NCBI GenBank assembly: GCA_938082505.1
Contig: CALLLH010000014.1
Span: forward strand, 62,001-126,000
Direction: 5' to 3'
Origin: an uncultured Flavobacteriales bacterium
GTDB taxonomy: Bacteria; Bacteroidota; Bacteroidia; Flavobacteriales_D; Sanyastnellaceae
Length of the DNA: 64,000 nucleotides
Shown in pieces: positions 5,004 to 62,008 of the stretch; the first letter of the stretch is position 1; every line of letters starts with the position of its first letter. A program made the position numbers and the translations under genes. A model generated the notes under the pieces. That model worked only from the letters and a program-made list of their open reading frames with translations, did no database searches and had not been told where the DNA came from.

Positions 5004-5011
5004 TATTTTGC
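5004..5011 (+). promoter_or_regulatory. Promoter -7 box at leaderless distance (gene at 5016)
   Basis: TATTTTGC begins 12 bases before the ATG. A TTTG at 4982-4985 lies 18 bases upstream, the expected -33 spacing for Bacteroidota promoters. Confidence 0.6.
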
Positions 5012-5015
5012 AGGT

Positions 5016-6095
5016 ATGAGGCGCAACCAGCACGGTCGGAATCAAGGTCATCCCACCCGTTTCATGACCTTGCTTGTGCTCTGGGCGGGCGTCTCGCAGT
5101 TGGCTTCGGCACAATTGGTCAATCCGGGTTTCGAGTTGTCGTCGGGGATGCCGGCAGCGCCGGGCATGTGGCATCTGCTGCATGGCTGGAACAATGCCTT
5201 CAGCGGTATTTCCAGCCCGGACTTCTTCCACATGGATGGAACGTTGGGAGGGGATCTTCCGGAGACTCCGGTCGCCATGGTGCATCCTGCGGACGGAAGA
5301 GGCGTGGCCGGATTGGCCGTCATCAAACGCAATGGCGCAGGACAACCCTTGTCCCGGGAATACCTGGTCCAGGCGTTCGATCAGCCCCTTCAGGTAGGCC
5401 AGCACTATCAGTTGTCCTTCTCGTTGACCAACGGAGAGCGGCTGCCGACTTCTCTTTCGGGCCTGGCGGTGAATGGTGTGGGGGTCGCCTTGACGGAAGA
5501 CCAGCCGGCGCAATTCGGCGATGGCGTATTGGATCTGTCCCCGGCGTTTCAGTTTCCCTACGCACGTTATGACGAGGAATGGGAACAGGTGACCATGACA
5601 TTCCTGGCCGATGCGCCGCACCGGTTTCTCACCATCGGGGTCTTTTTGCCCGATGAGGCCCTCGAAGCTGAAATCCGAGCGGGGACCAACCCCAGTCTCG
5701 CGTATTACTTCTTTGACGCATTCAGCATGGAGCCGGTTCCTCCGCCGGGTGAACCCGGCCCTGCAGGGGTCGAGGTGAAGGACCCCTTGGATGTGGATGA
5801 GCCGGGCGATGCCGGATTCGGCATGTTCGTTCCCAATGCATTCTCCCCGAATGGCGATGGGCTGAACGACATGTTCAAGCCCCAGGTCGGTGAAGTCAAG
5901 CCTGTGAACTTCGGCATCTACACCCGCTGGGGTCAGCGCATTGCGGAGCTGGATCCCGGGAGTCCGGAATGGGACGGCAAGGACGGTCAAGGCAAGTTGC
6001 TCTCACCTGGTGTCTATATCTGGATGCTCGAATGGCCACGAAGTGTTCCCCAGGAGCAACGCAGCCAACAAGGTGCCGTGATGCTGCTGCACTGA
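5016..6095 (+). CDS. T9SS type B sorting-domain protein (gliding-motility C-terminal domain)
   Basis: A 359-residue secreted protein. After a basic N-terminus there is a hydrophobic signal segment (FMTLLVLWAGVSQLASAQ). The middle contains a beta-sandwich-like region beginning LVNPGFELSSG, as in many Bacteroidota surface proteins. The last 85 or so residues form the gliding-motility-associated (CHU_C) domain: VPNAFSPNGDGLND, a RWGQRI core, WDGKDGQGK and a GVYIWMLEW strand. That domain is the type B signal for outer-membrane export by the type IX system. The start is fixed by a TATTTTGC box 12 bases upstream, predicting a leaderless transcript. No enzymatic motif was seen. Confidence 0.88.
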   Translation: MRRNQHGRNQGHPTRFMTLLVLWAGVSQLASAQLVNPGFELSSGMPAAPGMWHLLHGWNNAFSGISSPDFFHMDGTLGGDLPETPVAMVHPADGRGVAGLAVIKRNGAGQPLSREYLVQAFDQPLQVGQHYQLSFSLTNGERLPTSLSGLAVNGVGVALTEDQPAQFGDGVLDLSPAFQFPYARYDEEWEQVTMTFLADAPHRFLTIGVFLPDEALEAEIRAGTNPSLAYYFFDAFSMEPVPPPGEPGPAGVEVKDPLDVDEPGDAGFGMFVPNAFSPNGDGLNDMFKPQVGEVKPVNFGIYTRWGQRIAELDPGSPEWDGKDGQGKLLSPGVYIWMLEWPRSVPQEQRSQQGAVMLLH

Positions 6096-6121
6096 GGAGG
6101 GGCCATCTTTGCCTTCCGCGA

Positions 6122-7756
6122 GTGAAATGCCCAACATTGGTTGAATCCGCCCCCTTTTCCCTGATTGACAGTTTGCCGGAGTGGCACGTGGCTGCGCACT
6201 GGTGGAGGGGCACCCTCCCTGAGGCGCCGCCCGGCCAGTCTTGGCCGGACAAACCGGATGACGCGTCATTGGATGCCATGCGCGACCGGATCACGGGCCC
6301 GGAACACGGCCCTTTGCTCGTGGAGCGCCTCGGAATCCAATATCGGGAGGCGGGCATGTCCGCGCCGCGCCGCGCCGCCGACCTGCTCGGTGCACGGGCG
6401 CGCACCGTCACGGCGGGACACCAGCTCTGTCTGGCGGGCGGTCCGGCTTTCACCTACTATAAGATCCTGACCGCAATTCACCTGGCGCAGCGGCTCGAGC
6501 AACGCTGGGGAACAGCGGTCGTGCCGGTGTTCTGGCTGGCATCGGAAGACCATGACTTCGAGGAGATCAGCCGGCTGTGGACCGGTGATCGATGGATGGC
6601 CTGGGTGCCGGATGAGGCCACCGGAGGTCCGGTTGGTCGGTTGTCGGGAGTCGGGCTGCACGGCCTGCTTGAGGAGTGGGGCGGTATTGCCGGGCTGTCC
6701 GATGCGCAGCGGAAGCCATTGTCGAGTGGAGGGCATCCAACCCTCTCCATCGCCATGAGGCACTGGGTCCATGCTCTGTTCGGGCCGGATCGCATCGTGG
6801 TGTTGGATGGGGATGATTCCGCATTGAAAGCGAGGTTCGTGGACGTGATGCAGCGGGAGGTCAAGGGCGCCCTCACCTTGGAGGCGGTCAGCGAATGGAA
6901 TGAGGTGCTGGGCGGTGCTGGGTTCAAGCCACAGGTTCACGTCAGGCCATGCAACTTGTTCCACCTTGGTGAAGGCGGCAGGCACCGCATCGTGCAGGAG
7001 GAAGGAACGTGGCGCACCCTTGGGGGGAAATCATGGAGGGGTGAGGCCGATTTGCTCGAGGACATTGCGGCGGATCCCCGGCAGTTTTCGCCGAACGCCT
7101 TGTTGCGCCCCGTATACCAGTCCCTCCTGTTGCCGGATGTGGCGGTGGTGGGGGGCATGGCCGAAGTGGCTTATTGGTTGCAGATTCCGGGCGTCTTCCA
7201 TCGGCTGGGTTTGCCCCAGCCGGTTCTCGTGCCACGCGATGGAGCCTTGGTGTTGCCGAGCAAATGGTCCCGGCTCATGGAACGGTGTGGATTGGATGCC
7301 TCCGATTGGCAAGCGGGCAAGGATCAATGGGAAGCGCAGTGGATCGCCTCGACTGTGCCACCGGAGCTGAGGGCCTGGGAAGAAGCCGTGACAAGTGGTG
7401 CCGAGCTCACCCGTGAAGAGCTGGCCTCATTCGATGCCGCCTTGGAGGCTGGCGTCAAGGCCACCGAGGCGAAAATGAAGAACCTGCTTGAGAAATTGGA
7501 GCAGCAAATTGGACGCGCTGTGAAACGCAAGGAATCGGATGGCCTGGCTCGGATGGCCCGATTGGATGAATGGTGCCGACCGGATGGCAACATGCAGGAG
7601 CGGGTATGCACGTGGTTCCAGCTCGCCGCCGAGTGGGAGCGGCAAGGAGGGGCGGGGGCTTCACTTCCTGAGGTCCTCGATGCCGCCATGACGAAGGGGC
7701 ACGAAAAGGGAGGGTGGCGGCCTTTGATGCACGTCATCAGACAGGAAGGCCCTTAA
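6122..7756 (+). CDS. bshC: Bacillithiol biosynthesis cysteine-adding enzyme BshC
   Basis: A 544-residue protein when started at GTG 6122, close to the usual BshC length of about 530. Family signatures are visible: TVTAGHQLCLAGGPAFTYYK near the N-terminus, then VPVFWLASEDHDFEEI, a long C-terminal helical segment (about residues 430-480), and the terminal DGNMQERV stretch. BshC is taken to ligate cysteine to GlcN-malate, the last step of bacillithiol synthesis. The bshA partner is 35 kb away at 41204-42334. The reading frame stays open further upstream, but homology begins just after GTG 6122; a CATCTTTG promoter-like box lies at 6104-6111. The stop overlaps the promoter box of the next gene. 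Confidence 0.9.
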   Translation: MKCPTLVESAPFSLIDSLPEWHVAAHWWRGTLPEAPPGQSWPDKPDDASLDAMRDRITGPEHGPLLVERLGIQYREAGMSAPRRAADLLGARARTVTAGHQLCLAGGPAFTYYKILTAIHLAQRLEQRWGTAVVPVFWLASEDHDFEEISRLWTGDRWMAWVPDEATGGPVGRLSGVGLHGLLEEWGGIAGLSDAQRKPLSSGGHPTLSIAMRHWVHALFGPDRIVVLDGDDSALKARFVDVMQREVKGALTLEAVSEWNEVLGGAGFKPQVHVRPCNLFHLGEGGRHRIVQEEGTWRTLGGKSWRGEADLLEDIAADPRQFSPNALLRPVYQSLLLPDVAVVGGMAEVAYWLQIPGVFHRLGLPQPVLVPRDGALVLPSKWSRLMERCGLDASDWQAGKDQWEAQWIASTVPPELRAWEEAVTSGAELTREELASFDAALEAGVKATEAKMKNLLEKLEQQIGRAVKRKESDGLARMARLDEWCRPDGNMQERVCTWFQLAAEWERQGGAGASLPEVLDAAMTKGHEKGGWRPLMHVIRQEGP

Positions 7757-7761
7757 CTTTG
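7754..7761 (+). promoter_or_regulatory. Promoter -7 box (HAD gene)
   Basis: TAACTTTG is an exact TAnnTTTG match and overlaps the bshC stop codon. It implies a leader of about 50 bases before the start at 7818; that leader contains a purine-rich GGGAGGT and an out-of-frame ATG at 7780. Confidence 0.55.
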
Positions 7762-7817
7762 CACCTGTAAAGGGAGGTAATGGTCCTCGCTGTGTCAATC
7801 ACGCCACCCCGAAGACC

Positions 7818-8264
7818 ATGGAAAGCAAGAAGAATTTGTCCCTACAGGAAGCCCGCGATGCAGAAGGGCGCGCCGCTTCCCCCCAGCTGCCGGAACACGT
7901 CAAGAATTTCCTCATCGACATCGACGGGACCATCACCGAGGATGTGCCGAACGAGGAGCCGGAGCGGATGGCCACCTGTGCCCCTTTTCCCGATGCGCTC
8001 AACACGTTGAATGGATGGTATGACGAGGGGCATGTGATCACCTTTTTCACCAGCCGGACCGAGGACCACCGCGCAGTCACGGAGTCGTGGCTCAAGGACC
8101 ACGGATTCAAGTATCACGGTCTGCTCATGGGCAAGCCAAGGGGGGGCAATTACCATTGGATCGACAACCATGTGGTGCGGGCCACGCGTTATGTGGACCG
8201 CTTCACCCAGTTGGTCAAGACGACCCGCGAAATAGAAGTGTTCAAGGGCAACGAAGAGGACTGA
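7818..8264 (+). CDS. HAD-superfamily phosphatase-like protein
   Basis: A 148-residue protein with the HAD nucleophile motif I in FLIDIDGTITEDVP (both aspartates present), motif II around FFTSRTEDHR, and a conserved MGKPRGGNYHWIDNH block. This small family is common in Bacteroidota and is often labelled phosphoheptose isomerase in databases, but the visible motifs are those of a HAD hydrolase. The substrate is unknown; a sugar phosphate is plausible. The start follows a roughly 50-base leader with its own TAACTTTG promoter. Confidence 0.8.
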   Translation: MESKKNLSLQEARDAEGRAASPQLPEHVKNFLIDIDGTITEDVPNEEPERMATCAPFPDALNTLNGWYDEGHVITFFTSRTEDHRAVTESWLKDHGFKYHGLLMGKPRGGNYHWIDNHVVRATRYVDRFTQLVKTTREIEVFKGNEED

Positions 8265-8267
8265 GCG

Positions 8268-8681
8268 TCATCCGCGTTCGTCCAGGAAGCGCTGCAGGAT
8301 GATGGCCGCTGCGATGCGGTCGATCCGGCCTTTTTCCCGGCGCTTGGATTTTCGCATTCCTCCCGTCACCATGGCCATGCTCGCTTCTACGCTCGTGTGG
8401 TCCTCATCGACAAAATGGACGGGAATCTCCGGATGTCGCTTGCGCAAATCGCCAGCAAAAGCCGCGATGTCATCCGTGCTGTGCGTGTGCTCGCCTGATA
8501 TGAGGCCGGGTTGGCCGACGACGAAACCTGCGCACGGTTCGGCCTGCACCAAGCGGGCGAGCACTTCCGCACACTCCTGAGGACTGCACGTGCACTCGGG
8601 GGAGGCGATCAACGCCCCCGAATCGGTCACGGCGATGCCGATGCGCCTGGAACCGTAATCGAATGCGATGAACCGCGCCAT
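8268..8681 (-). CDS. ruvX: Putative Holliday junction resolvase / pre-16S rRNA nuclease (YqgF)
   Basis: A 137-residue RNase H-fold nuclease of the YqgF/RuvX family. Motifs seen: FDYGSRRIGIAVTD with the first catalytic aspartate, FVVGQP, FVDEDHTSVEA in place of the usual DERxTT block, KRREKGRIDRIAAAIILQ with the last acidic residue. The length is normal. Members process the 5' end of 16S rRNA and were first proposed as resolvases. It is divergent from dapD with only 40 bases between the two start codons. The 3' end lies four bases from the convergent HAD gene. Confidence 0.93.
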   Translation of the reverse strand: MARFIAFDYGSRRIGIAVTDSGALIASPECTCSPQECAEVLARLVQAEPCAGFVVGQPGLISGEHTHSTDDIAAFAGDLRKRHPEIPVHFVDEDHTSVEASMAMVTGGMRKSKRREKGRIDRIAAAIILQRFLDERG

Positions 8682-8685
8682 GGCG

Positions 8686-8693
8686 CGAATTTA
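8686..8693 (-). promoter_or_regulatory. Promoter -7 box at leaderless distance (ruvX)
   Basis: TAAATTCG on the minus strand begins 12 bases before the ruvX ATG, leaving a CGCC gap. It is 16 bases from the opposing dapD box. Confidence 0.6.
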
Positions 8694-8709
8694 CCTGATG
8701 GACACCGGG

Positions 8710-8717
8710 TATCTTCG
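8710..8717 (+). promoter_or_regulatory. Promoter -7 box at leaderless distance (dapD)
   Basis: TATCTTCG begins 12 bases before ATG 8722, leaving a CCCC gap. This favours 8722 over the upstream in-frame ATG at 8668, which lies inside ruvX. Confidence 0.6.
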
Positions 8718-8721
8718 CCCC

Positions 8722-10995: not shown

Positions 10996-10999
10996 GCCC

Positions 11000-11007
11000 C
11001 CAAATTA
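11000..11007 (-). promoter_or_regulatory. Promoter -7 box at leaderless distance (gene ending at 10639)
   Basis: TAATTTGG on the minus strand starts 12 bases before the ATG at 10995, with a GGGC gap. Confidence 0.55.
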
Positions 11008-11119: not shown

Positions 11120-11137
11120 AGCACCCATAACAAACGA

Positions 11138-12305: not shown

Positions 12306-13193
12306 TCAGGGGGCTCCGACAGGGGAGCCTCCGAGCAGTCCGGTGTCATCCTGGAGGGAGGTTTCTCCGGAAGGCGATGGCGGATTTTCCTCCTCCTCCT
12401 CAGGCAATGGAGGCGGTTGGGGCCCATCGCTCTTCAATACAAGCGCGAGCAACCCCCCGACGCAGGCCCCTGAGAGGTGTCCTTCCCAGCTGACGCCCAC
12501 CTCGATGGGGAAGACGCCCCAAACGATGCTGCCGTAGAGGAACACCACAACCAGGGCGACGCGCATCAGCACAGTGTGCCTGCGGATGACGCCACTCAAA
12601 AAGAGAAAGGCGGCCAAAGCATACACGACACCACTGAGCCCGATGTGGTTTCCGCCCACTCCGCTCGTCCACAGCAATGTTCCACTGCCCACCCAGCACC
12701 AGAACAGCACCTTGGGGCCGATTCCGCGATAGAAATACAGCAGCATCGCAGACAGGGTGAAGAACGATACTGTATTGCCCCAGATGTGGCTCCATCCACC
12801 GTGCAGGAAGGCCATGCTCAGGATGCCGATCAACCCGCGGGCCTGCAGTGGGCGGTTTCCGAAGCGGTTGAGACCGAGGTCGAATTGGAGGTTGATCAGG
12901 AATACGCCCCAAACGAGAACCAGACAGCCGACGGTCATGACGAGCGCAGTGAAAATCCTGTGCCGATCCGCCTGCAGTTCCTCCTGCGAGTGCCCGGGCC
13001 GCATTGCGGGATGGTCAGGTCTCCTGAAGCTGCGCCAGGGCCTGGCTCCGGGGGCAATGCCCACCTCATTAGGGGATGCCGGCTGCTCGCGCGAGACGGA
13101 GGCATCCTGATGCTCTCCTGAGGAAGAGCTGGAAGCACTGCCAAACCTGGGGTTTGGAGTGGCATCCACACGTTCGTTTGGATAAGAACCCAC
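12306..13193 (-). CDS. Rhomboid-family intramembrane serine protease (GTG start)
   Basis: A 295-residue membrane protease when started at GTG 13193. The N-terminal 75 or so residues are Ser/Pro-rich and probably cytoplasmic. Six membrane segments follow. Rhomboid hallmarks are HGGWSHIWGN, the nucleophile motif GLSG in HIGLSGVVYALA, and the partner histidine in GHLSGACVGG. The C-terminal tail has a PPPLPEEEEE stretch. The start was chosen because a TATTTTGA promoter box sits exactly 12 bases before the GTG; the first in-frame ATG after it (13004) would remove about 63 residues. It is divergent from the gene at 13253 and convergent with dnaN. Confidence 0.85.
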   Translation of the reverse strand: MGSYPNERVDATPNPRFGSASSSSSGEHQDASVSREQPASPNEVGIAPGARPWRSFRRPDHPAMRPGHSQEELQADRHRIFTALVMTVGCLVLVWGVFLINLQFDLGLNRFGNRPLQARGLIGILSMAFLHGGWSHIWGNTVSFFTLSAMLLYFYRGIGPKVLFWCWVGSGTLLWTSGVGGNHIGLSGVVYALAAFLFLSGVIRRHTVLMRVALVVVFLYGSIVWGVFPIEVGVSWEGHLSGACVGGLLALVLKSDGPQPPPLPEEEEENPPSPSGETSLQDDTGLLGGSPVGAP

Positions 13194-13197: not shown

Positions 13198-13205
13198 TCA
13201 AAATA
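13198..13205 (-). promoter_or_regulatory. Promoter -7 box at leaderless distance (rhomboid, GTG start)
   Basis: TATTTTGA on the minus strand begins 12 bases before GTG 13193 with a CGCC gap. Confidence 0.5.
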
Positions 13206-14716: not shown

Positions 14717-15993
14717 CCCTGGTCGGAAGGAGCGAAGGAAATCAAGGCACTTTCAAGCGCCGAAGCCACGCGTTGAACATCTCCAATTGACATGAGCCGG
14801 TGAATGGGCAGGCTGATGGCCGCATGGAAGGCTGCACAAGCATGGGGAACATCAGAAGCCGAGAAGCCCCTTTCCCGGTAGGCGGTCAACAGGGGGAGGG
14901 GAGGGAAATGGACATTCGTGGCGATGCCCGCAGCGGCCAATGCCTCCATGATGTCATCGCGGTGGATGGACGCAGCAGCCGAGAGCCGGATCACATAGAG
15001 GTGGTCGGCGCTGCGCCGGCCATCCCCGAGGCGGACGGGCAATTCGATTCCCGGAATCGCGGAGAGGGCCTGGTCATAAGCGTCTGCAAGGGAGTGACGG
15101 TGGGCGAGATCTTGCCCATAGCGTTCGAGCGCGACCCGGCCCATGGCCGCCTGGATGTCCGTCATGTTGCATTTGAATCCAGGTCGGGTCACGTCGTATT
15201 TCCAACTGCCCTTGCCTTGGGCGCTGTATTTGGAGGCGGCATCCTTGGTCTGTCCGTGCAGGCAGAGGGCGCGCAATTCCCGGTGGACTTCTCGAGCATC
15301 GAATCCATCGGGCAAGGCAATGGCGACGGCTCCACCTTCGGCGGTGGTGAGGTTCTTGACCGCATGGAAGGAGAATACCGACAGGTCCGCCTGGCTCCCG
15401 ACCGTCGATCCATTGACCTCTGCGCCCAGCGCATGGGCGGCATCGGAAAGGAGGAGGGGACGCCCGAGCTTGGATTGCACGGGGTGCTGACTGGTGAAGC
15501 CGCGCTGCAGCCCCCACATGGCGAGGCGGCTTTTCCATTCCTCGCAGGGTATGGGCCACCCCCCGATGTCAACCGGCATGACCGCCTTGGTCCGCTCCGA
15601 AAGGAGGGGTTCGACCATTTCCCACGTGATGTTGAGCCCATCCTGGCGTCCGGTCGGGGGCAGGTCGACCAGCACGGGGGTAGCGCCGCGATGGAGGACG
15701 ACATTGGCTGTGGCGCAATAGGTGTAGGCCGGGAGAATGACTTCGTCGCCGGGCCCTACGCCGAACCAGTCCAGGATGACCCCGGCAAGGCCGGTCCACG
15801 AACCGCCGCAGAGGACCGCGGGTACCCCGGTGAATGCGGCCAATTCCCGCTCGAAGGCAGCCGTTTCTGGTCCGGTGGTGATCCAACCGGACCGCAGAAC
15901 CCGCTCGACGGCAGCGATGGTGGCGTCATCGATGTACGGGGGTGCGAATCCAATGGGTTCGGGGTTCAGGGGGGCGCCTTGTTCGGAAGCCAT
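14713..15993 (-). CDS. DegT/DnrJ/EryC1-type PLP-dependent sugar aminotransferase
   Basis: A 426-residue PLP enzyme of the nucleotide-sugar aminotransferase family. Seen are APPYIDDATIAAVERVLRSGWITTGPETAAFE, GGSWTGLAG, GDEVILPAYTYCATAN, the PLP region DAAHALGAE, and the Schiff-base lysine in SVFSFHAVKNLTTAEGG. It would make an amino sugar, probably at C4 of a UDP-linked keto sugar, for the adjacent PglC-like transferase. The start at 15993 fits both homology and a GATTTTCG promoter box 13 bases upstream. Confidence 0.9.
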   Translation of the reverse strand: MASEQGAPLNPEPIGFAPPYIDDATIAAVERVLRSGWITTGPETAAFERELAAFTGVPAVLCGGSWTGLAGVILDWFGVGPGDEVILPAYTYCATANVVLHRGATPVLVDLPPTGRQDGLNITWEMVEPLLSERTKAVMPVDIGGWPIPCEEWKSRLAMWGLQRGFTSQHPVQSKLGRPLLLSDAAHALGAEVNGSTVGSQADLSVFSFHAVKNLTTAEGGAVAIALPDGFDAREVHRELRALCLHGQTKDAASKYSAQGKGSWKYDVTRPGFKCNMTDIQAAMGRVALERYGQDLAHRHSLADAYDQALSAIPGIELPVRLGDGRRSADHLYVIRLSAAASIHRDDIMEALAAAGIATNVHFPPLPLLTAYRERGFSASDVPHACAAFHAAISLPIHRLMSIGDVQRVASALESALISFAPSDQG

Positions 15994-15998: not shown

Positions 15999-16006
15999 CG
16001 AAAATC
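15999..16006 (-). promoter_or_regulatory. Promoter -7 box near start (aminotransferase)
   Basis: GATTTTCG on the minus strand begins 13 bases before the ATG at 15993. The first base deviates from the consensus T. Confidence 0.45.
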
Positions 16007-18632: not shown

Positions 18633-18640
18633 GAAAGATA
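18633..18640 (-). promoter_or_regulatory. Promoter -7 box at leaderless distance (S41 protease)
   Basis: TATCTTTC on the minus strand starts 12 bases before the ATG at 18628, with a GGGC gap. Confidence 0.55.
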
Positions 18641-25189: not shown

Positions 25190-25197
25190 GGAAGGTA
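25190..25197 (-). promoter_or_regulatory. Promoter -7 box at leaderless distance (gene at 25185)
   Basis: TACCTTCC on the minus strand starts 12 bases before the ATG, with a GGTC gap. The last two bases are weak matches. Confidence 0.4.
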
Positions 25198-25249: not shown

Positions 25250-27268
25250 TCAGAAGGCGAGGAGGCGGTTCAGTGCCTTCGGCAGACGCTCCTTCGGCAG
25301 GTAGTCGGCTTCCAGGGTGGGGGCAAAGGGCACCGGGGTGTCGAGTGAGGCCACCCTTTCCACCGGGGCGTCCAAGTGGCTGAAGCAGGCCGACTGGATC
25401 CTGGCGGTCAGTTCCGCACCAATTCCCCCCGTCAGGTTGTCCTCGTGGAGCACGAGCACCCGTCCGGCTCTTTTCGCGGCATCAAATACCGTGTCCCAAT
25501 CAATGGGAGCCAACGTCCTCAGGTCCACCACGCCGATTTCACCCAGGCCTTCATTCCGGCAGCGTTCGGCTTCTTCGAGTGCCCAATGCACGCCCATGCC
25601 GTAGGTGATGATGACCGCAGCCTCCGGAATGCCGAACAGCCGGGCCTTGCCGAATGGCAAGCTGTAGTCGTTCGTAGGCACCGCGCCACTGAGGCTGCGA
25701 TAGAGCGCCTTGTGCTCGAAGAACAGCACGGGATTCGCCGTATCGAAGGCCGACGCCAACAGCCCCTTGGCGTCTTCGGGGAAGGCCGGATAGGCGATCA
25801 TCAGGCCCGGTACATGGAAGAACCAGGCTTCGTTCGATTGGCTATGAAAGGGACCGGCAGCGACTCCTGCACCCGTGGGCATCCGGACCACCACATCTGC
25901 GTGCTGGCCCCATCTCCAGTGCAGCTTGGCCAGGTTGTTCACGATCTGGTTGAAGCCGCAGGTAACGAAGTCCGCGAACTGCATTTCCACCATGGCCTTC
26001 ATTCCGGCGATGGAGAGCCCCAGCCCAGTTCCGACAATGGCGCTTTCGCAGAGGGGCGTGTTGCGCACGCGGTCTTCACCGAACCGTTCTGTGAAGCCGT
26101 CTGTGACCTTGAATACGCCTCCATAGGCACCGATGTCCTGGCCCATCAGCACGAGGTTGTCGTGCCGTTCCATGGCGAGGGCAAGGGCCTCGGAGATCGC
26201 ATCGATGAACCGTTTCTCCTCGGTCTCTCCCGAAGGTTCCCGGTACTCCGGAGTCTCCTTGCGGAAGAGGCGTTCCACTTCGCCTGCGGCGTTTGCCTCC
26301 ACGTCAGGTTGGGCTTCGGCCGCCTTCAGGGCAGCGGCAATGTTCTTCTTGATCGCTTCCTTGCGCCCCTCCACGTAGGAAGCGTCAACATGGCCCTCTT
26401 TCTGCAGGAAGGCGATGTAGGCGTCGACCGGGTCGCGGGCCTCCCAGGATTCGATGAGGCCTTCCGGGTAATACTTCGTTCCACTGGCTTCCTCATGGCC
26501 TCGGCGCCGGAAGGTGTCGAACTCGAGCAGGATGGGGCGGGGGGCCTTGCGGATCGAGGCCGCGGCCTTCTTTACGGCTTCATAGACGGCCAGGATGTCG
26601 TTGCCGTCCACGCGGATGGCGTCCTCCGCGGGAATGCCGTACCCGATGGCCTTGTCGATGAACTGCGCGCATCTGAATTGCTGCGTGCTGGGCGTAGACA
26701 GCCCCCAATGGTTGCTCTCAATGCAGAAGATCACGGGCAACGACCAGACGCTCGCGACATTGAGCGCTTCGTGAAAGTCCCCTTCACTGGTGGCGCCGTC
26801 TCCCGTGAACACGAGGGTCGCCTTGCCTTCCTTCCGGTTCTTCGATGCCAATGCGATGCCATCTGCAATGCCGAGCTGCGGGCCGAGGTGGCTGATCATC
26901 CCCACGATGTGGTGCTCCATGGTGCCGAAATGGAAACTGCGGTCATGGCCCTGCGTGAAGCCGGTGGCTTTTCCCTGGAATTGGGCGAAGAGGCGGGTCA
27001 GGTCAATCCCCCGTGTGGTGAACACACCGAGGTTCCGGTGCATGGGCAGGATGAATTCTTCGGGTTGCAACGCCGCCGCACATCCGACCGAGATGGCCTC
27101 CTGACCCATGCCTGAGAACCACTTGCTGATGCGCCCCTGCCGCAACAGACTGAGCATCTTCTCCTCAATCAACCGGGGAAGGAGCAGGTGGTCGAGCAGC
27201 TCGAGCATGACCTTGGGCGCGATGCCGCGGTCCTGAATGTGCAGGGCGGAAACCTTCTTCGAAGCCAT
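25250..27268 (-). CDS. Fused alpha/beta E1 subunit of a 2-oxoacid (branched-chain type) dehydrogenase
   Basis: A 672-residue thiamine diphosphate enzyme joining both E1 chains. The alpha half (about residues 1-330) has SGMGQEAISVG, the ThDP motif GDGATSEGDFHEALN and FDTFRRRGHEE. The beta half (about residues 345-672) has MGQDIGAYGGVFKVT, TPLCESAIVGTGLG, and the C-terminal DLRTLAPIDWDT and VLHEDN blocks. Fused E1 proteins of this kind are frequent in Bacteroidota and oxidatively decarboxylate branched-chain oxoacids or related substrates together with E2 and E3, which are not in the window. The start has an exact TAGATTTG box 13 bases upstream. Confidence 0.92.
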   Translation of the reverse strand: MASKKVSALHIQDRGIAPKVMLELLDHLLLPRLIEEKMLSLLRQGRISKWFSGMGQEAISVGCAAALQPEEFILPMHRNLGVFTTRGIDLTRLFAQFQGKATGFTQGHDRSFHFGTMEHHIVGMISHLGPQLGIADGIALASKNRKEGKATLVFTGDGATSEGDFHEALNVASVWSLPVIFCIESNHWGLSTPSTQQFRCAQFIDKAIGYGIPAEDAIRVDGNDILAVYEAVKKAAASIRKAPRPILLEFDTFRRRGHEEASGTKYYPEGLIESWEARDPVDAYIAFLQKEGHVDASYVEGRKEAIKKNIAAALKAAEAQPDVEANAAGEVERLFRKETPEYREPSGETEEKRFIDAISEALALAMERHDNLVLMGQDIGAYGGVFKVTDGFTERFGEDRVRNTPLCESAIVGTGLGLSIAGMKAMVEMQFADFVTCGFNQIVNNLAKLHWRWGQHADVVVRMPTGAGVAAGPFHSQSNEAWFFHVPGLMIAYPAFPEDAKGLLASAFDTANPVLFFEHKALYRSLSGAVPTNDYSLPFGKARLFGIPEAAVIITYGMGVHWALEEAERCRNEGLGEIGVVDLRTLAPIDWDTVFDAAKRAGRVLVLHEDNLTGGIGAELTARIQSACFSHLDAPVERVASLDTPVPFAPTLEADYLPKERLPKALNRLLAF

Positions 27269-27273: not shown

Positions 27274-27281
27274 CAAATCTA
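27274..27281 (-). promoter_or_regulatory. Promoter -7 box near start (E1 dehydrogenase)
   Basis: TAGATTTG, an exact TAnnTTTG match on the minus strand, begins 13 bases before the ATG at 27268. Confidence 0.6.
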
Positions 27282-37929: not shown

Positions 37930-37937
37930 TATTTTCA
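37930..37937 (+). promoter_or_regulatory. Promoter -7 box at leaderless distance (cotransporter)
   Basis: TATTTTCA begins 12 bases before ATG 37942, with a CACC gap. It supports this start over longer upstream readings. Confidence 0.55.
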
Positions 37938-42338: not shown

Positions 42339-42346
42339 GCAATTTA
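42339..42346 (-). promoter_or_regulatory. Promoter -7 box at leaderless distance (bshA)
   Basis: TAAATTGC on the minus strand starts 12 bases before the bshA ATG, with a CGAC gap. Confidence 0.55.
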
Positions 42347-45310
42347 CTCCCCTCCGCCGCCTCCGGGGGGCGCATCGGCGAAACGAAAGGGCAAATTGAG
42401 CGATTCCTGAATGATCACCAGTGCTTTCGTTCGGATGTCCTCATCGACATACAGACGGTTGCCCGCATCGGGACAGACGCGATTGGCGAGGATGATGGCG
42501 GTCCAGTCTCCCTCGGGATCCGTCCAGGCAAGGGTGCCTGTGAATCCACTGTGGCCGAAACTCGACCAGGAACCGGCATTGCCGCTCGCTCCGGTCTCGG
42601 GTTCCAGACCGGGCTTGTCCCAACCCAATGCCCGCCGGTTGTCTTCTTCAGGGAAGGCACGCCGGGTGAATTCGGCAACCGTCTCGCTCCGCACGATCCG
42701 CGTTCCCCTCCACACGCCTCCGTTGCCCAAGCATTCCATCAGCACCGCGAGATCATGGGCGTCCGAAAAAAGGCCTGCATGCCCCGCCACCCCACCCATC
42801 ATGGCCGCTCCGGGATCGTGGACGTATCCGCGGACCCAGGCATCCCGGAATGAGGTGTCCCTTTCGGTGGGGGCGATGTCCTCGAGGGGAGACCATTCCA
42901 GGGGCAGGTAGCCCATGCGTTGCAGCCCCAGGGGTCGCAGGATCAAGCTGTCGGCCACAGCCGCCAATGGCATGTCCCACCGGGCTTCGAGGATTTCCTG
43001 CAACAGGTAGTACCCGATGTCGCTGTAGCGGTATCGACCTGAAGGCTTGGGTTCGATGCCCCGGATCGTGGTGCGGATGGAATCGCACCAATCAGGGTGC
43101 ATGCACCGGCCCGAACACAGGGTGACCCAGCCGGGCACCTCTTCCGCGGCCAAGACTCCATCTGTGCTGTCCGCATGGGCGGTCAGGTCCATGTAGAAAG
43201 GTATCCAAGCGGGCAGGCCGGAACGGTGTGCCAGCACATCCCTCAGGGTGCGGCGGGCCAGTTCCGGGTGGAGTTCGGCGGTCGGGTGTCGCGGCAGGAT
43301 TTCGCCCAAAGGTTGGTCCAGGCCAACCAGGCCCCGCTCCACGGAAATCATCGTCAGCAGTGTGGAGACGGCCACCTTTGTGATCGAGGCGAGATCGTAG
43401 AGGTGGTGTCTTTCGACGGGAGTGTCGGCTTCATCCCCCAACGAGCCATAGGCGGCATCGTGTCGGATGGAATCTCCGCGGGTCACGAGAATCCGCATCC
43501 CGGGGGTTGCGCCCATCGCGATGGCGGCGTCGGCCAAGCTGTCGAGGCGATGTCCCATGGCCCGCGAGGCGGAATCAGGTGGAGCACGGAACAACCTCGG
43601 TGCCGAGATCGGGTTTCCCATTCCCGCCTTCCATCCCGCAACATCCACGGGAAGCCGACCCAGGGCGTGGCCTTCACCGCACAAGGCGGCCATGGCGGCC
43701 GTCTGCGTGAGGTCATCCTCTTGATGGGCGATCAGCCAACGGAAGTCGGGATCGTTGGGGAGGTGGGCCAGGGCATAAGGACTGGTGAAGAGGGCAATGC
43801 TGAGGTGCTCCGATTCAGCAGACATCCGCTCGATGAGCCGATCGGCACCCTGCGGAATTCCGAAGCGTCGCGACGGCTTGTTGCTTTCGTCAAGGAAGGC
43901 CAGCACCACTTCGCTGTGGCCTTCGACCGAGCGGGCTGTGGCTTCAATTTGCGCCTCCGAGATGGGGCCCTTGCCGATCCGGATGACCGCGGTCTTGGGG
44001 TGGGTCAGCTTCATTCGCCGCTCCAGGGCATCTCCCCGGTTGCCGATGATGACCAGGGCAGGGGGCAACCGCACGTCCAGCGTTTCAGGGTCACCCAAGT
44101 GCACGAGCATGTGGCTCCTCAGTTGCTGCTGCAATCCGAAGGACGTGGAAGTGGGCGCTTCGGCTGAAGCCGGCACATCCAACCATTGCTTGGCCATCAG
44201 CACCTTGAAGCAGGCATCATCCAGCCTGGCCGTGTCGAGCTCTCCACGGCGCAAGGCGGATTCGATGCTGTCGATGACAAGCGCGGGATCGGAAGGAAAC
44301 AGCAGGATGTCATTGCCTGCCTTGAGCGCCGCAACCTCGCGTGTACCGGGCGGCACGAGGTCCGAAGCTCCCGCCATGGTCAGCGCATCGGTGAATACAA
44401 GGCCTTCGAAGCCCAGGCTGTCGATCAGCAGATCCCGCACCACCCTGGGAGACAGCGATGTCGGCATTCCCGTAATGGAATCGAGGGCGGGAACATCGAG
44501 GTGCGCGGTCATGATCCCTTCGACGCCTCGGTGGATCAAGGTGCGGAAGGGAGGCAACTCGAGGTCATCAAAGTGGGCGCTGTCCGACAGGATGCGGGGC
44601 AAGGCAAGATGCGAGTCCAGATCCGCATCACCATGCCCTGGAAAATGCTTGCCGACCGCCATCACTCCGGCCTTGCGAAGCCCTTCGGCCCAAGCCGCCG
44701 CCAAGCGGCCCACCCAATCGGGCCGAGACCCGAACGAACGGTTGCCGATGACGGGATTCGCGGGGTTGCTGTTCACGTCGGCCACCGGAGCAAAGTCAAT
44801 TCCGATGCCCAAGGCCTTCAGTTCCAATCCGGCGTGGTAGCCGGCCTGCCGAACCAGGTCCTCATTCTCTGTTGCGCCCAGCGACATGGCCTTGGGAAAG
44901 GTCAGGCCATCGCCCAACCGCATGCCGGCCCCCCATTCGGCATCCATGGCGGTCATCAGGCCGACCCCTTGTCTGGAACGGGCGAGGCTGTCCAAAGTCC
45001 GCAGATTCCGCTTCGTGGTGGTGCGGTCGCCCTGCATGGCGATGACCCCTCCGATGCCATATTCCAGAACATCCGCTGCGACCCCTTCGAAGGAATCTGA
45101 TTCGCCGGGCTTGGAATACAAGGGCAGCATCATGAGCTGTCCAATCTTCTGGCGAACCGTCATGCTGTCCATTCCGTCCCGGGCGGCAGCGGAATCCGCA
45201 TTCAGGAACAGGGGGCGCATTGGAGGCTCCGGTGCCTGGGCTTCTCCTGATTGACAGCCCAAGAGTATGGGCGCCAAAAGAAAAACGCCCCATGTGTGCA
45301 CCTTAAGCAT
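42344..45310 (-). CDS. Lipoprotein fusing GH3 beta-N-acetylhexosaminidase and beta-lactamase-type serine hydrolase
   Basis: A 988-residue lipoprotein with lipobox ILLGC at residue 19. The GH3 domain (about residues 45-400) has KHFPGHGDADLDSH at 221-234 and the nucleophile aspartate in FTDALTMAG at residue 308. A GH3 C-terminal-like linker domain reaches about residue 570. The last 400 residues are a class C beta-lactamase/transpeptidase-fold hydrolase with the SxxK motif SITK at 642-645 and RYSDIGYYLL as the second motif. Such fusions are typical of Bacteroidota and are thought to recycle peptidoglycan. The start lies eight bases inside the end of cmk. Confidence 0.93.
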   Translation of the reverse strand: MLKVHTWGVFLLAPILLGCQSGEAQAPEPPMRPLFLNADSAAARDGMDSMTVRQKIGQLMMLPLYSKPGESDSFEGVAADVLEYGIGGVIAMQGDRTTTKRNLRTLDSLARSRQGVGLMTAMDAEWGAGMRLGDGLTFPKAMSLGATENEDLVRQAGYHAGLELKALGIGIDFAPVADVNSNPANPVIGNRSFGSRPDWVGRLAAAWAEGLRKAGVMAVGKHFPGHGDADLDSHLALPRILSDSAHFDDLELPPFRTLIHRGVEGIMTAHLDVPALDSITGMPTSLSPRVVRDLLIDSLGFEGLVFTDALTMAGASDLVPPGTREVAALKAGNDILLFPSDPALVIDSIESALRRGELDTARLDDACFKVLMAKQWLDVPASAEAPTSTSFGLQQQLRSHMLVHLGDPETLDVRLPPALVIIGNRGDALERRMKLTHPKTAVIRIGKGPISEAQIEATARSVEGHSEVVLAFLDESNKPSRRFGIPQGADRLIERMSAESEHLSIALFTSPYALAHLPNDPDFRWLIAHQEDDLTQTAAMAALCGEGHALGRLPVDVAGWKAGMGNPISAPRLFRAPPDSASRAMGHRLDSLADAAIAMGATPGMRILVTRGDSIRHDAAYGSLGDEADTPVERHHLYDLASITKVAVSTLLTMISVERGLVGLDQPLGEILPRHPTAELHPELARRTLRDVLAHRSGLPAWIPFYMDLTAHADSTDGVLAAEEVPGWVTLCSGRCMHPDWCDSIRTTIRGIEPKPSGRYRYSDIGYYLLQEILEARWDMPLAAVADSLILRPLGLQRMGYLPLEWSPLEDIAPTERDTSFRDAWVRGYVHDPGAAMMGGVAGHAGLFSDAHDLAVLMECLGNGGVWRGTRIVRSETVAEFTRRAFPEEDNRRALGWDKPGLEPETGASGNAGSWSSFGHSGFTGTLAWTDPEGDWTAIILANRVCPDAGNRLYVDEDIRTKALVIIQESLNLPFRFADAPPGGGGGE

Positions 45311-55735: not shown

Positions 55736-55743
55736 TAAATTTG
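55736..55743 (+). promoter_or_regulatory. Promoter -7 box at leaderless distance (sugar permease)
   Basis: TAAATTTG, an exact match, starts 12 bases before ATG 55748 with a GCGC gap. TTG at 55716 is 20 bases further upstream and fits the -33 element. Confidence 0.65.
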
Positions 55744-55747
55744 GCGC

Positions 55748-57425: not shown

Positions 57426-57438
57426 AATCCCATGGTGT

Positions 57439-57708: not shown

Positions 57709-57760
57709 GAGGTTGAGTCGGTGTGCTGTGAGTCGCAGAGGGGAGGTTCCCCGAGCAGCG

Positions 57761-57768
57761 GCAAAATA
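57761..57768 (-). promoter_or_regulatory. Possible promoter -7 box (winged-helix gene)
   Basis: TATTTTGC on the minus strand; the start codon is 53 bases downstream of its last base. Confidence 0.35.
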
Positions 57769-57802
57769 GAAGCCAGCACGGATGAATCAAGAGTTTTCCA
57801 TG

Positions 57803-57816
57803 GTACAGATATGTAC
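57803..57816. repeat. GTACA-GATA-TGTAC inverted repeat
   Basis: Five-base arms around GATA, in the AT-richer stretch between the winged-helix gene and the end of the pseudo-acyltransferase gene. Confidence 0.5.
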
Positions 57817-57855
57817 AAATTGTTCACGCTATGATGACCCACGGATAAAATGCGG

Positions 57856-59015: not shown

Positions 59016-59022
59016 GGCATGC

Positions 59023-59030
59023 CGAAATTA
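59023..59030 (-). promoter_or_regulatory. Promoter -7 box (aat)
   Basis: TAATTTCG on the minus strand begins 15 bases before the aat ATG, predicting a leader of about three bases. Confidence 0.5.
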
Positions 59031-59077
59031 GGGCCGGGAGAGCTTGACGATTTCCTCAAGTCATCAGAGAAGAACAG

Positions 59078-59746
59078 ATGGAGCATTCAGTGGATTGGTC
59101 AGGATGGGAAGATGCGGGCAAACCGTTGCCCGGCGCAGCTGCTCATCGTCCGATGATGCCCTACGCGCGTTCTTCGGCGGCTGAGGCCCGGGCCAAAGGG
59201 AACGCAGGGGTGGATTTCAGGGAGGCGGCCGTATTCATCGGAATTGAACCCGATGGAACCATGGCATTGATTGAAAGGACACCCGAAAAAGGGCCGCATG
59301 GTGGCCAGATGGCATGGCCGGGAGGGGCAAGGGAGCCGGGAGAGTCCATGCTGGAGTGCGCATTGCGGGAATGGAGGGAGGAGTTGGGGCTGCCTGGTGC
59401 ACACGGCCCCATGCGCCCCCCGGTTCCATTGACTGAAGTCCACGTCGAGCCGAGCCGATTCGTGGTGCGGCCGTTCGTGGCCCCGGTGGAGCTGCCGGAC
59501 CTGCTGATGCCCGATGAGGTTGAAGTGGCGGCGGTTCACCGGATCCGGTTGGACGACATTGTGGACGACCGCTACAGGACCCGACGGCCCGTGCTCGTCC
59601 ACCTTCCGGGCAGGAGGGGCTTCAAGTGGGAAGCGCCGGGTTTTGCGCTGCCGGAAGTGCCCTTCATCTGGGGGGCTACAGCTTTGATCCTTTGCGAAGT
59701 TGCCGAGTGGTATGCCGCTTGGAGCAGCAAACCTTCACCGAAGTAA
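59078..59746 (+). CDS. NUDIX hydrolase, CoA pyrophosphatase-like
   Basis: A 222-residue NUDIX protein. The NUDIX box is complete: GGAREPGESMLECALREWREELGL matches the pattern G-x5-E-x7-RE-x2-EE-x-G. It is preceded by the GGQMAWPGG segment typical of NudL/CoA-diphosphatase members and by RSSAAEARAKGNAGVDFREAAV. The fold ends FIWGATALILCEVAEW, also typical of that subgroup. It would cleave CoA, acyl-CoA or a similar nucleotide diphosphate. The next gene starts 10 bases downstream with its own promoter box inside the end of this gene. Confidence 0.9.
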   Translation: MEHSVDWSGWEDAGKPLPGAAAHRPMMPYARSSAAEARAKGNAGVDFREAAVFIGIEPDGTMALIERTPEKGPHGGQMAWPGGAREPGESMLECALREWREELGLPGAHGPMRPPVPLTEVHVEPSRFVVRPFVAPVELPDLLMPDEVEVAAVHRIRLDDIVDDRYRTRRPVLVHLPGRRGFKWEAPGFALPEVPFIWGATALILCEVAEWYAAWSSKPSPK

Positions 59747-59751
59747 TTTTG
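59744..59751 (+). promoter_or_regulatory. Promoter -7 box at leaderless distance (gene at 59756)
   Basis: TAATTTTG, an exact match, starts 12 bases before the ATG with a CCGA gap. It overlaps the stop codon of the NUDIX gene. Confidence 0.6.
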
Positions 59752-59755
59752 CCGA

Positions 59756-60298
59756 ATGGCAACAAAAAAGGCACTGGCGTTGGCCGAACTCCATGAAGGG
59801 CTTCATTCACCGGTCGAAGAGCGCCGGGATGCCGCATTGAAACGCGTGGCGGCGGAGGGAGAGCTCGCGACCATTGGTGAGCTCGTGAGGCTGCGCGGGG
59901 AGACGGATGAACCGAAAGTCCGCGAGGAAGTCGCCAATCTGCTGCGTGGGCTCAAGCTAGAGGGCGCTGGAACCGAGCTGATCGCAGTGGCCCTTCGCCC
60001 GGAGCATGCCGACCAATTGGCCGATTTATTGGGGTTCCTGTGGGAATGTGGGGGGAATGCGGATGGACAGTGCAGGAATCTGGCCATACGATCGGTGGAA
60101 ATGGGCATGCCCGTCATGGTGGAGGTATTGACCCTGTTCGAAGAGCTTCCTGAATGGCTGGACGACGAGGCTGACCTTCTGGACGCCATGCTGATCCTCA
60201 AACAGGGCCTGTCTGCGCGCCAAGGGGGCAATGCCACAACAGAAGTGGAAATGCTCAAGTTGATGCTCGCCGAGCTGATGAAACGAGAGCGGAACTAA
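59756..60298 (+). CDS. HEAT-repeat-like helical protein, unknown function
   Basis: A 180-residue soluble protein made of helix pairs. VEERRDAALKRVAAEGELATIGELVRLRGE and EPKVREEVANLLRGL look like two HEAT-type repeats in the first 70 residues; the rest is acidic helix with a Leu-rich LMLAELMK end. There is no signal peptide or enzyme motif. It is conserved-looking but not recognised. It has its own promoter and ends two bases from the convergent carboxylase gene, with no terminator between. Confidence 0.75.
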   Translation: MATKKALALAELHEGLHSPVEERRDAALKRVAAEGELATIGELVRLRGETDEPKVREEVANLLRGLKLEGAGTELIAVALRPEHADQLADLLGFLWECGGNADGQCRNLAIRSVEMGMPVMVEVLTLFEELPEWLDDEADLLDAMLILKQGLSARQGGNATTEVEMLKLMLAELMKRERN

Positions 60299-60300
60299 GT

Positions 60301-61947
60301 TCAGGTCTGCAGCACCCCCATGGTGAACGGACCTTCCGGCGGTGCGCCATCCGCCGCAGCAATCCCTTCCGATATCCAGTGTCGGGTATCGCGTGGATCG
60401 ATGATGGCATCCACCCAAAGTCGGGCCGCCGCGTAGTAAGGAGAGGTTTGTTCTGTATACCGGGTTTCGATGGCCTCTCGGAGTTCAGCCTTCCGTTCAG
60501 GCGTGATTTCCTCGCCCTGTTTTTTGCGGGTGGCCACCTCTATCTGCAACAGCACACCTGCCGCTTGGGCACCCCCCATGACGGCCAATTCAGCGGTGGG
60601 CCAGGCGACGATGAGTTTCGGGTCATAAGCTTTGCCGCACATGGCGTAATTCCCTGCACCGTAGCTGTTGCCTACGATGACGGTGAATTTGGGCACCACT
60701 GAATTGGCCATGGCATTGACCAATTTCGCACCATCCTTGATGATCCCTCCCTGTTCGCTCTTCGAACCGACCATGAAGCCGGTGACGTCCTGAAGAAACA
60801 CAAGGGGAAGGCCTTTCTGGTTGCAATTCATGATGAACCTGGCGGCTTTGTCCGCACTGTCCGAATAGATGACGCCGCCGAATTGGGTTCCTTGCTTGGA
60901 GCTCTTGACCAGCATGCGCTGGTTGGCCACGATGCCGACACTCCAGCCATCGATCCGGGCTGTTGCACAGAGCAGGGTCTTGCCATAGTCGCGCTTGAAT
61001 TCAGTGAAGGACCCACCGTCCACCAATGCGGTGAGCAGCTGACGAACATCGTAGGGCTCACGCCTCGAAGCCGGCAGGATGGAGAGCAATTCGTCCGCAT
61101 CACCGGCAGGGTGTTCAGGCGCGGTGCGGTCGAAATGCCGTCTGCTGGGCCGTCCGGCCCGATGTGACATCAGGGTGCGCAGCAGTCGGATGGCTTCGCG
61201 GTCATCTTCCACCACATGGTCCACCACCCCTGAAATGCTGCCGTGCATGTCGGCCCCGCCCAGGTCTTCTGCTCCCACATCCTCGCCGATCGCAGCCTTT
61301 ACGAGATAGGGGCCGGCGAGGAAGATGCTGCCCGTGCCCTTGACAATGATGCTCTCATCGCTCATGATGGGCAGGTAGGCCCCTCCGGCCACACAGCTGC
61401 CCATGACGGCCGCCAATTGCGGAATGCCGGCTGCACTGAGCCGGGCATTGTTCCGGAATATCCGTCCGAAGTGCTCCTTGTCGGGGAAAATTTCGTCCTG
61501 CATGGGGAGGTAGACTCCTGCGCTGTCCACGAGGTATACGATGGGCAGGTGCAGCTCAAAGGCGAGCTCCTGTGCCCTCAGGTTCTTTTTTCCAGTGATG
61601 GGAAACCAGGCGCCCGCCTTGACGGTGGCATCATTGGCGACGACGATGCAGCGCACCCCACTGACCTTGCCGATGACCACGACGCATCCTCCAGCTGGAC
61701 AACCGCCATGTTCCTTGTACATGCCGTGCCCCGCGAAAGCGCCCACTTCAAGCAGCGGTTCACCATCATCCATCAGGAGTGAAATCCGTTCACGGGCGGT
61801 GAGCTTGCCCTTCGCGTGCTCCTTGTCGATCCGTGCCTGCCCTCCGCCCAGCATGACCTGCTGGAGTTGGTGGTCCATCGCCGACAGCTTGAGCTTCATG
61901 GCATCGGCGCGTTGTTGGCGTTTAATTTCCTCGGCTGGAATGGGCAT
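60301..61947 (-). CDS. Acyl-CoA carboxylase carboxyltransferase (methylcrotonoyl-CoA carboxylase beta type)
   Basis: A 548-residue biotin-dependent carboxyltransferase. The N-terminal crotonase-like half has GGGQARIDKEHAKGKLTARERI, ATVKAGAWFPITGKKNLRAQE and YLVDSAGVYLPMQDEIFPD; the second half has GVIYSDSADKAARFI, LVFLQDVTGFMVG and SYGAGNYAMCGKAYDP, close to MccB and propionyl-CoA carboxylase beta chains. The LPMQDEIFPDKEHFGRIF block favours methylcrotonoyl-CoA, a leucine breakdown step. The biotin-carrying alpha subunit is not in the window. A TAAATTGG promoter box lies 31 bases upstream. Confidence 0.93.
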   Translation of the reverse strand: MPIPAEEIKRQQRADAMKLKLSAMDHQLQQVMLGGGQARIDKEHAKGKLTARERISLLMDDGEPLLEVGAFAGHGMYKEHGGCPAGGCVVVIGKVSGVRCIVVANDATVKAGAWFPITGKKNLRAQELAFELHLPIVYLVDSAGVYLPMQDEIFPDKEHFGRIFRNNARLSAAGIPQLAAVMGSCVAGGAYLPIMSDESIIVKGTGSIFLAGPYLVKAAIGEDVGAEDLGGADMHGSISGVVDHVVEDDREAIRLLRTLMSHRAGRPSRRHFDRTAPEHPAGDADELLSILPASRREPYDVRQLLTALVDGGSFTEFKRDYGKTLLCATARIDGWSVGIVANQRMLVKSSKQGTQFGGVIYSDSADKAARFIMNCNQKGLPLVFLQDVTGFMVGSKSEQGGIIKDGAKLVNAMANSVVPKFTVIVGNSYGAGNYAMCGKAYDPKLIVAWPTAELAVMGGAQAAGVLLQIEVATRKKQGEEITPERKAELREAIETRYTEQTSPYYAAARLWVDAIIDPRDTRHWISEGIAAADGAPPEGPFTMGVLQT

Positions 61948-61970
61948 TTCCGTTCATTGCGGGTTCGAAC

Positions 61971-61978
61971 CCAATTTA
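61971..61978 (-). promoter_or_regulatory. Promoter -7 box (carboxylase)
   Basis: TAAATTGG on the minus strand, back to back with the promoter of the divergent ABC gene. Confidence 0.4.
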
Positions 61979-61995
61979 CGGCCGATGCGGCCCCG

Positions 61996-62003
61996 TACTT
62001 TTG
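61996..62003 (+). promoter_or_regulatory. Promoter -7 box near start (ABC binding protein)
   Basis: TACTTTTG, an exact match, starts 13 bases before ATG 62009. Confidence 0.6.
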
Positions 62004-62008
62004 ATGGC

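Follow-up and report, generated by a model that had tools for sequence, protein, structure and literature searches.

Promoters in Flavobacterium are built on a -7 element written TAnnTTTG or, in the form revised for F. johnsoniae, TAHHTTTG (PMC6847099, PMC9723704). We analyzed a 64,000-nucleotide (nt) stretch of DNA from an uncultured Flavobacteriales bacterium (assembly GCA_938082505.1, contig CALLLH010000014.1, positions 62,001 to 126,000), hereafter called the window, together with further sequence of the same genome and of its relatives, with regard to a TAnnTT box placed 12 bases before start codons. The box is a promoter element, and very probably, when placed at this distance, it gives rise to leaderless messenger RNAs (mRNAs), a layout that would be a major one in the source genome and in its family.

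Leaderless mRNA is a known kind of transcript that has already been suggested for Bacteroidota. In F. johnsoniae 87% of the predicted transcripts have a leader of more than 10 nt (PMC6847099), and in F. psychrophilum 5.5% of 890 mRNAs are leaderless (PMC9723704). Bacteroides thetaiotaomicron has the same promoter family and, as predicted for the organism studied here, leaderless mRNAs; about 3.7% of its 5' untranslated regions are shorter than 10 nt and the commonest length is 23 nt (PMC7366714). A survey that described leaderless genes in Actinobacteria and Deinococcus-Thermus found them in one of 37 Bacteroidetes/Chlorobi genomes (2.4%), and its authors judged it unlikely that high percentages had been missed (PMC3160421). 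Of two further papers, one deals with base biases and states that Bacteroidetes have been reported as harbouring a high leaderless fraction (PMC5397173), and the other mentions leaderless mRNA in Flavobacteriia without CCUCC in their 16S ribosomal RNA (PMC10783764), thus adding the loss of the anti-Shine-Dalgarno sequence. Both link Bacteroidota with leaderless mRNA, and in their accessible text this is done without a -7 box at a fixed distance or a family with a high leaderless share. A leaderless-rich Bacteroidota family defined by promoter position was not found described in the open literature searched, and neither was the scale of the layout in this family or its basis in the -7 box.

As the original prediction for this window had proposed, the box corresponds to the -7 element of the Bacteroidota sigma factor: it agrees with the Flavobacterium element in its core, in the avoidance of G, in the inferred distance to the transcription start site and in its presence at transfer RNA (tRNA) genes. 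Two differences were observed. Mapped Flavobacterium transcripts are mostly leadered, whereas here the sharpest box position is 12 nt before ATG, and the source genome (60% G+C) frequently has C or G as the seventh base. The leaderless genes of Actinobacteria and Deinococcus-Thermus are similar in that the box lies about 12 bp upstream, a high proportion of the genes is concerned and the G+C content is high, but their box is TANNNT, whereas the source genome uses TAnnTT (PMC3160421).

A TAnnTT box at a fixed distance from start codons

The source assembly consists of 2.45 Mb in 60 contigs and is 94.8% complete. Most counts were made in a sample of 464 kb, comprising the window and 400 kb of the same genome, in which 380 genes were predicted with a coding-only caller that is blind to upstream sequence. 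Box offsets are given as the position of the first T of TAnnTT relative to the first base of the start codon. At the 1,048 candidate ATG starts of the sample, TAnnTT was found 4, 41 and 9 times at -11, -12 and -13, respectively, against an average of 3.2 per offset between -20 and -49. The 41 occurrences at -12 compare with 0.42 expected (Poisson log10 P about -65), and a motif-blind scan of 38,400 combinations of gapped 4-mers and offsets ranked TAnnTT at -12 first. The same box was present at one of 2,915 in-frame internal ATGs and at nine of 14,787 other ATGs. When only the ATG starts selected by the blind caller were considered, 28 of 300 had a -12 box, the mean at -17 to -60 being 1.4 per offset. 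Additionally, in a cross-validation, weight matrices trained on one half of the data and applied to the other (threshold 5) gave 30 sites against 0.7 expected and 26 against 2.0.

A genome-wide count by offset, which the original prediction had proposed as a check, also shows the peak: TAnnTT precedes ATG 188 times at -12 and 47 times at -24, an excess of about 141, and the flat profile that had been named as contrary evidence did not appear. Strict ATG boxes at exactly -12 amount to about 7% of the genes genome-wide (about 2,000 genes, extrapolated from the sample), and a strict box at -11 to -13 is present in 53 of 375 genes (14.1%) of the sample. Boxes are about 1.4 times as frequent in the sample as in the genome as a whole (36 expected from 188 x 464/2445, 51 found, all ATG classes), so its percentages are somewhat high for the genome. 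The -12 pattern with a C before the ATG occurs 144 times in the genome, compared to 19 times for the reversed motif; in 16 congeners the corresponding ranges are 70-155 and 8-53. Genes with a single candidate start, considered as a control, numbered just ten, none of them with a -12 box, and this sample is too small to use. Chance combined with the picking of starts by eye could have been suspected, because the box had guided the choice of three starts in the original prediction. This explanation, to which we assign a negligible probability, is refuted by the blind starts, the cross-validation, the internal-ATG null and the genome-wide counts, each of which shows the -12 peak and upholds the claim that the boxes exceed chance.

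In the window itself, TAnnTT is found exactly 12 bases before the start codon at all 11 genes for which it had been claimed; the start codon at 13193 is GTG and the other ten are ATG. Three more genes had been said to have a closely similar box at -13. TAnnTT is indeed present at 27268 and 62009, and the sequence at 15993 is GATTTTCG, which lacks the first T, so the wording was fair although the match is incomplete. The sites are listed below.

5004..5009, plus strand: TAnnTT at -12 of ATG 5016; type IX secretion system type B sorting-domain protein, start unconfirmed
8688..8693, minus strand: TAnnTT at -12 of ATG 8681 (ruvX); back to back with the box of 8722
8710..8715, plus strand: TAnnTT at -12 of ATG 8722 (dapD); start without independent confirmation
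11002..11007, minus strand: TAnnTT at -12 of ATG 10995; unknown protein
13200..13205, minus strand: TAnnTT at -12 of GTG 13193; rhomboid-family protein, start uncertain
16001..16006, minus strand: degenerate box GATTTT at -13 of ATG 15993; DegT-family aminotransferase
18635..18640, minus strand: TAnnTT at -12 of ATG 18628 (ctpA); S41 C-terminal processing peptidase
25192..25197, minus strand: TAnnTT at -12 of ATG 25185; unknown protein
27276..27281, minus strand: TAnnTT at -13 of ATG 27268; dehydrogenase E1 / transketolase-like protein
37930..37935, plus strand: TAnnTT at -12 of ATG 37942; amino-acid permease / K-Cl cotransporter-like protein
42341..42346, minus strand: TAnnTT at -12 of ATG 42334 (bshA); the TAA of the box doubles as the stop codon of the upstream gene
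55736..55741, plus strand: TAnnTT (full TAnnTTTG) at -12 of ATG 55748; FucP-like major facilitator superfamily transporter
59744..59749, plus strand: TAnnTT (full TAnnTTTG) at -12 of ATG 59756; the upstream gene ends on the TAA of the box
61996..62001, plus strand: TAnnTT at -13 of ATG 62009; start uncertain

The use of an upstream TAA stop codon as the first three bases of the box was observed at window positions 42344-42346 and 59744-59746 and in five more cases in the own-genome sample; at these places stop codon, promoter and next start fit into about 15 bases. Divergent pairs whose starts are about 20-70 bases apart, each gene having its own box at -11 or -12, were found at 8681/8722 in the window and, elsewhere in the genome, at 5695/5766 and 52275/52297 of contig C16 and 41833/41902 of contig C24; the two promoters of such a pair overlap or nearly touch. 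A minus-strand gene at 42344-45310 of the window encodes a glycoside hydrolase family 3 domain fused to a beta-lactamase-family domain.

The box as a promoter element and the predicted transcript 5' ends

In the sample, TAnnTT[TC]G starts 19-35 nt upstream of seven of eight tRNA genes, the eighth trailing another tRNA gene by about 100 nt; the 64-kb window contains no tRNA genes. At the 41 sites with a box at -12, G occurs three times and once, respectively, at the two free positions (4 of 82 letters), the background being about 30% G (P about 8e-9). The rate of boxes is highest at divergent genes, where an own promoter is required: strict boxes at -11 to -13 before any start codon were found in 33 of 120 such genes (27.5%), and with ATG only in 25 of 120, compared to 3 for the reversed and 2 for the complemented motif. 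Further upstream (-17 to -60, ATG only) the box is near its controls, with 1.32 per offset versus 0.95 and 1.02. Because untranslated tRNA genes carry the box, G is avoided at its free positions and divergent genes are richest in it, the TAnnTT box is a promoter.

The fixed distance to the start codon is also what would be expected of a translation signal, such as an A/T-rich site for the ribosome or for S1, or Kozak-like upstream adenines, which would be silent on the start of transcription. Bacteroidota are without Shine-Dalgarno sites and use upstream adenines (PMC7366714, PMC6847099). The tRNA genes, which have the same box without being translated, largely refute such a signal, and the pattern is that of a -7 element with avoidance of G, not an A-rich run, and is commonest at divergent genes. 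We therefore reject this reading as very improbable and continue with the box as a promoter.

Two proteins of the genome contain a Sigma70_r3 domain. One of them (on L029) is a 289-amino-acid primary-type sigma-70, in which the absence of region 1.1 was judged from length and sequence. From the seventh base onward, 15 of the 41 -12 sites read TAnnTTG and 15 read TAnnTT[TC]G. The TAnnTTG boxes resemble SM5 (TAnnTTGY), which was assigned away from the primary sigma factor in PMC9723704, and part of the set could thus be read by a second sigma factor; the presence of two Sigma70_r3 proteins and the lack of TAnnTTG among the seven tRNA boxes would fit this. No significant surplus of TAnnTTG is seen at -12 relative to positions further upstream (15:15 versus 36:56, P = 0.39), and the orthologous promoters of ctpA and bshA interchange TTG, TTT and TTC among relatives. 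A separate sigma factor for the TAnnTTG boxes is accordingly unsupported, and we consider it improbable.

The distance between the element and the transcription start was taken from the mapped species. In F. psychrophilum the element occupies positions -12 to -5 relative to the transcription start site (PMC9723704), and in F. johnsoniae there are 4 or 5 nt between the two (PMC6847099). With this spacing, a box at -12 or -13 would place the transcription start on the A of ATG or within one base of it. A C directly precedes the ATG in 34 of the 41 -12 sites, which fits a pyrimidine-purine initiator. The proposal that transcripts begin at or beside the start codon is thus supported by the identity of the box, its fixed distance and the Flavobacterium spacing, the 5' ends themselves being inferred. 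In the proposed mechanism, the primary sigma factor would read the box as its -7 element; with the box 12 (sometimes 11 or 13) bases ahead, RNA polymerase would initiate at the first base of the codon, give or take one base, yielding a leaderless mRNA, and the ribosome would then have to recognise a 5'-terminal AUG without an upstream binding site.

Start codons and conservation of the layout in relatives

The original prediction stated that eight of the eleven starts fit homology or are the natural first start. This could be substantiated for five of them (42334, 18628, 37942, 8681 and 55748), the other listed genes being without independent confirmation. The family alignment of bshA (42334) begins at residue 1 and its start is also backed by relatives, as are those of 18628 and 37942; for 8681 (ruvX) and 55748, the family alignments begin within about 6 residues of the profile start. 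The blind caller picked different starts for seven of the 14 listed genes (5016, 8722, 10995, 13193, 37942, 42334 and 62009).

The nearest public relatives, identified by BshA, are Flavobacteriales metagenome-assembled genomes with 78-89% identity (12 loci), one of which is labelled Crocinitomicaceae. The comparison covers four window genes (18628, 37942, 42334 and 15993), the other ten having no relative that passed the filters in the loci compared. A box was found at -12 or -13 of ctpA (18628) in 12 of 13 relatives, at -11 to -13 of the permease gene (37942) in seven of nine, the two misses being cases where the start is placed elsewhere, and at -11 or -12 of bshA (42334) in 11 of 12. The flanking bases change around the kept boxes of all three genes. 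Moreover, the bshA box, which overlaps the upstream stop codon in the source genome, reads TAC in three relatives, so that the box itself is kept, beyond a mere stop codon. Judged from these alignments, the layout appears to be kept by selection among the relatives for ctpA, the permease gene and bshA. A bshA -7 box at -11 or -12 was also observed in the distant Sphingobacteriales-type loci L083, L091 and L093.

These data bear on the possibility that the promoter and the transcription start are as described but that many of the ATGs are false, a later codon being used after a short leader. In line with it, 13 of the 41 -12 sites differ from the start of the blind caller, and boxes exceed the control also at 14-33 nt ahead of candidate starts. 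The blind starts lie later by 6-384 nt in some cases and earlier by 27-81 nt in others (-11 and -13 sites included). Against it stand the 28 blind-chosen ATG starts with a -12 box, the ATG 12 nt past the box, which relatives retain in three genes despite the drift of other upstream bases, and the alignment of bshA from its first residue. We regard such a general misplacement of starts as quite unlikely, and retain the view that the ATG beside the predicted transcript end is the one used.

Distribution among genomes and the anti-Shine-Dalgarno sequence

Among 150 genomes of the order, -12 boxes exceed -24 boxes (z > 3) in all six genomes of the own genus and in 40 of the 45 other genomes of the family, that is, in 46 of 51 family genomes, and in 19 of 99 genomes of other families, 17 of those 19 belonging to family f2. 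The search for the same offset in relatives, proposed in the original prediction, thus gave the expected excess, and the description of leaderless mRNAs as widespread is borne out for the source genome and its family but not for the phylum. A phylum-wide count of TAnnTTTG at -12, which served as a guide only, gave at least one match in 245 of 247 genomes; within the class the reversed control was exceeded in many genomes, though not in all, and the layout is therefore not exclusive to the own family.

The leaderless share was estimated from TAnnTT[TC]G or TAnnTTG, compared with reversed and complemented controls, in genes able to have their own promoter and within 80 nt of the start; 90% bootstrap intervals are given in parentheses. 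Labels such as own-genus and marine were assigned by us according to BshA identity and the titles of the records. A number of groups are small, and the bshA-centred loci are not independent because all surround bshA and share neighbouring genes. Of 80 such loci, 64 were checked for the bshA box, 63 entered the groups in which strict boxes and the C before ATG were counted, and 60 the context and leaderless-share groups, from which short loci (3,000 bases at most) were excluded. Genomes G270 and G287 stand outside all box surveys; G045 and G276 entered a single survey, which likewise excluded short loci, and G144 entered this survey and the context comparison.

Source genome: 0.40 (0.29-0.55)
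Own-genus public loci: 0.50 (0.20-1.00)
Sister genera g124-126: 0.58 (0.38-0.84)
G313 (g144, own family): 0.21 (0.00-0.55); 77-100 kb, wide interval
G269 (own family): 0.33 (0.08-1.00); 77-100 kb, wide interval
Low-G+C marine Flavobacteriales loci: 0.67 (0.43-1.00)
Other high-G+C Flavobacteriales loci: 0.52 (0.21-1.00)
Family f2 (outside own family): 0.25 (0.13-0.42)
Family f46: 0.00 (-0.11-0.12)
Family f54: 0.05 (-0.14-0.23)
f49+f51 (outside own family): 0.41 (0.14-0.80)
f4 (outside own family): 0.50 (0.18-0.88); 80 kb
Family f6: 0.08 (-0.03-0.24)
f3+f5: 0.21 (-0.29-1.00)
f22: -0.04 (-0.18-0.00)
f17: 0.33 (0.00-1.00)
Named Sphingobacteriaceae loci (outside own family): 0.21 (0.13-0.30)

Several points weigh against leaderless mRNA as a major layout particular to the source genome and its family. 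The 5' ends for the source organism rest on the spacing known from Flavobacterium. Among the 41 aligned sites, no positional enrichment of a -33 TTTG element was found near -33, an element that is weak in F. johnsoniae too (PMC6847099). C at -1 is not specific to leaderless starts, since boxless starts favour it as well: in boxless blind starts, C is present at -1 in 54% (versus 30%) and at -2 in 44%, and T at -1 is avoided (5%). The box rate follows the need for a promoter imperfectly. A strict box was found in 7 of 79 genes that lie 10 nt or less from a same-strand neighbour, and in 11 of 58, 6 of 67 and 6 of 45 genes with same-strand gaps of 11-40, 41-100 and more than 100 nt, respectively (none of seven with a larger overlap). 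The boxes of all seven close followers open with the TAA of the preceding gene, a stop codon that supplies three of the bases and makes a chance match easier. At 15993, a strict box at -11 to -13 is present in none of 11 relatives. Finally, a -12 excess is also seen outside the family, in the shares of f2, f49+f51, f4 and the named Sphingobacteriaceae loci and in 17 of 60 f2 genomes, and within the family the estimates for G313 and G269 are low.

Upstream of 15993, a TTCG core just before the ATG was observed in nine of 11 relatives (L167-L179), and a GAATTG block near -30 in the window and six of 11 relatives; the latter is perhaps a -33-type element offsetting a weak -7 box.

About 40% of the detectable promoters of the source genome would be leaderless, compared to 5.5% and 3.7% reported for two mapped Bacteroidota. 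What is understood of how Bacteroidota find their start codons without Shine-Dalgarno sites comes chiefly from Flavobacterium and Bacteroides. A leaderless-rich family reopens this question for marine lineages, and its close relatives allow leadered and leaderless initiation to be compared in a natural setting. In such genomes, TAnnTT at -12 could serve gene finders as a start signal.

As a side result, the 3' ends of 16S ribosomal RNA were compared. No 16S ribosomal RNA was found in the source assembly; of 114 family genomes, 11 had an end that could be read. The anti-Shine-Dalgarno core CCUCC is changed in three of these 11, reading ACUCC in G258 (L239; own genus g1) and G454 (g149) and UCUCC in G321 (L242; g126), and is intact in eight genomes of seven genera (G408, G409, G267, G269, G293, G263, G045 and G299). 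The -12 excess is 57-82 per Mb in the changed-core genera (genus medians) and 18-51 per Mb in the intact-core genera; among the three changed genomes just G321 has its own -12/-24 counts, and genus counts stand in for G258 and G454. Outside the family, the excess is 8-64 per Mb in seven changed-core genomes and -1 to 78 per Mb in 19 intact ones, with G336 (CCUCU) counted as intact and the changed G495, G532, G537 and G578 being without counts.

Decay of the anti-Shine-Dalgarno sequence as the cause of leaderless use fits within the family and fails outside it. As changed cores outside the family lack much leaderless excess, no causal link is drawn. That one marine Flavobacteriales family moved to leaderless mRNAs as its main layout while its anti-Shine-Dalgarno sequence decays is conceivable but doubtful; if true, recognition of a 5'-terminal AUG would be a permanent way of initiating translation among free-living members of a phylum whose mapped species use it rarely. 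Similar UCUCC changes were observed in other Flavobacteriales families without much leaderless excess.

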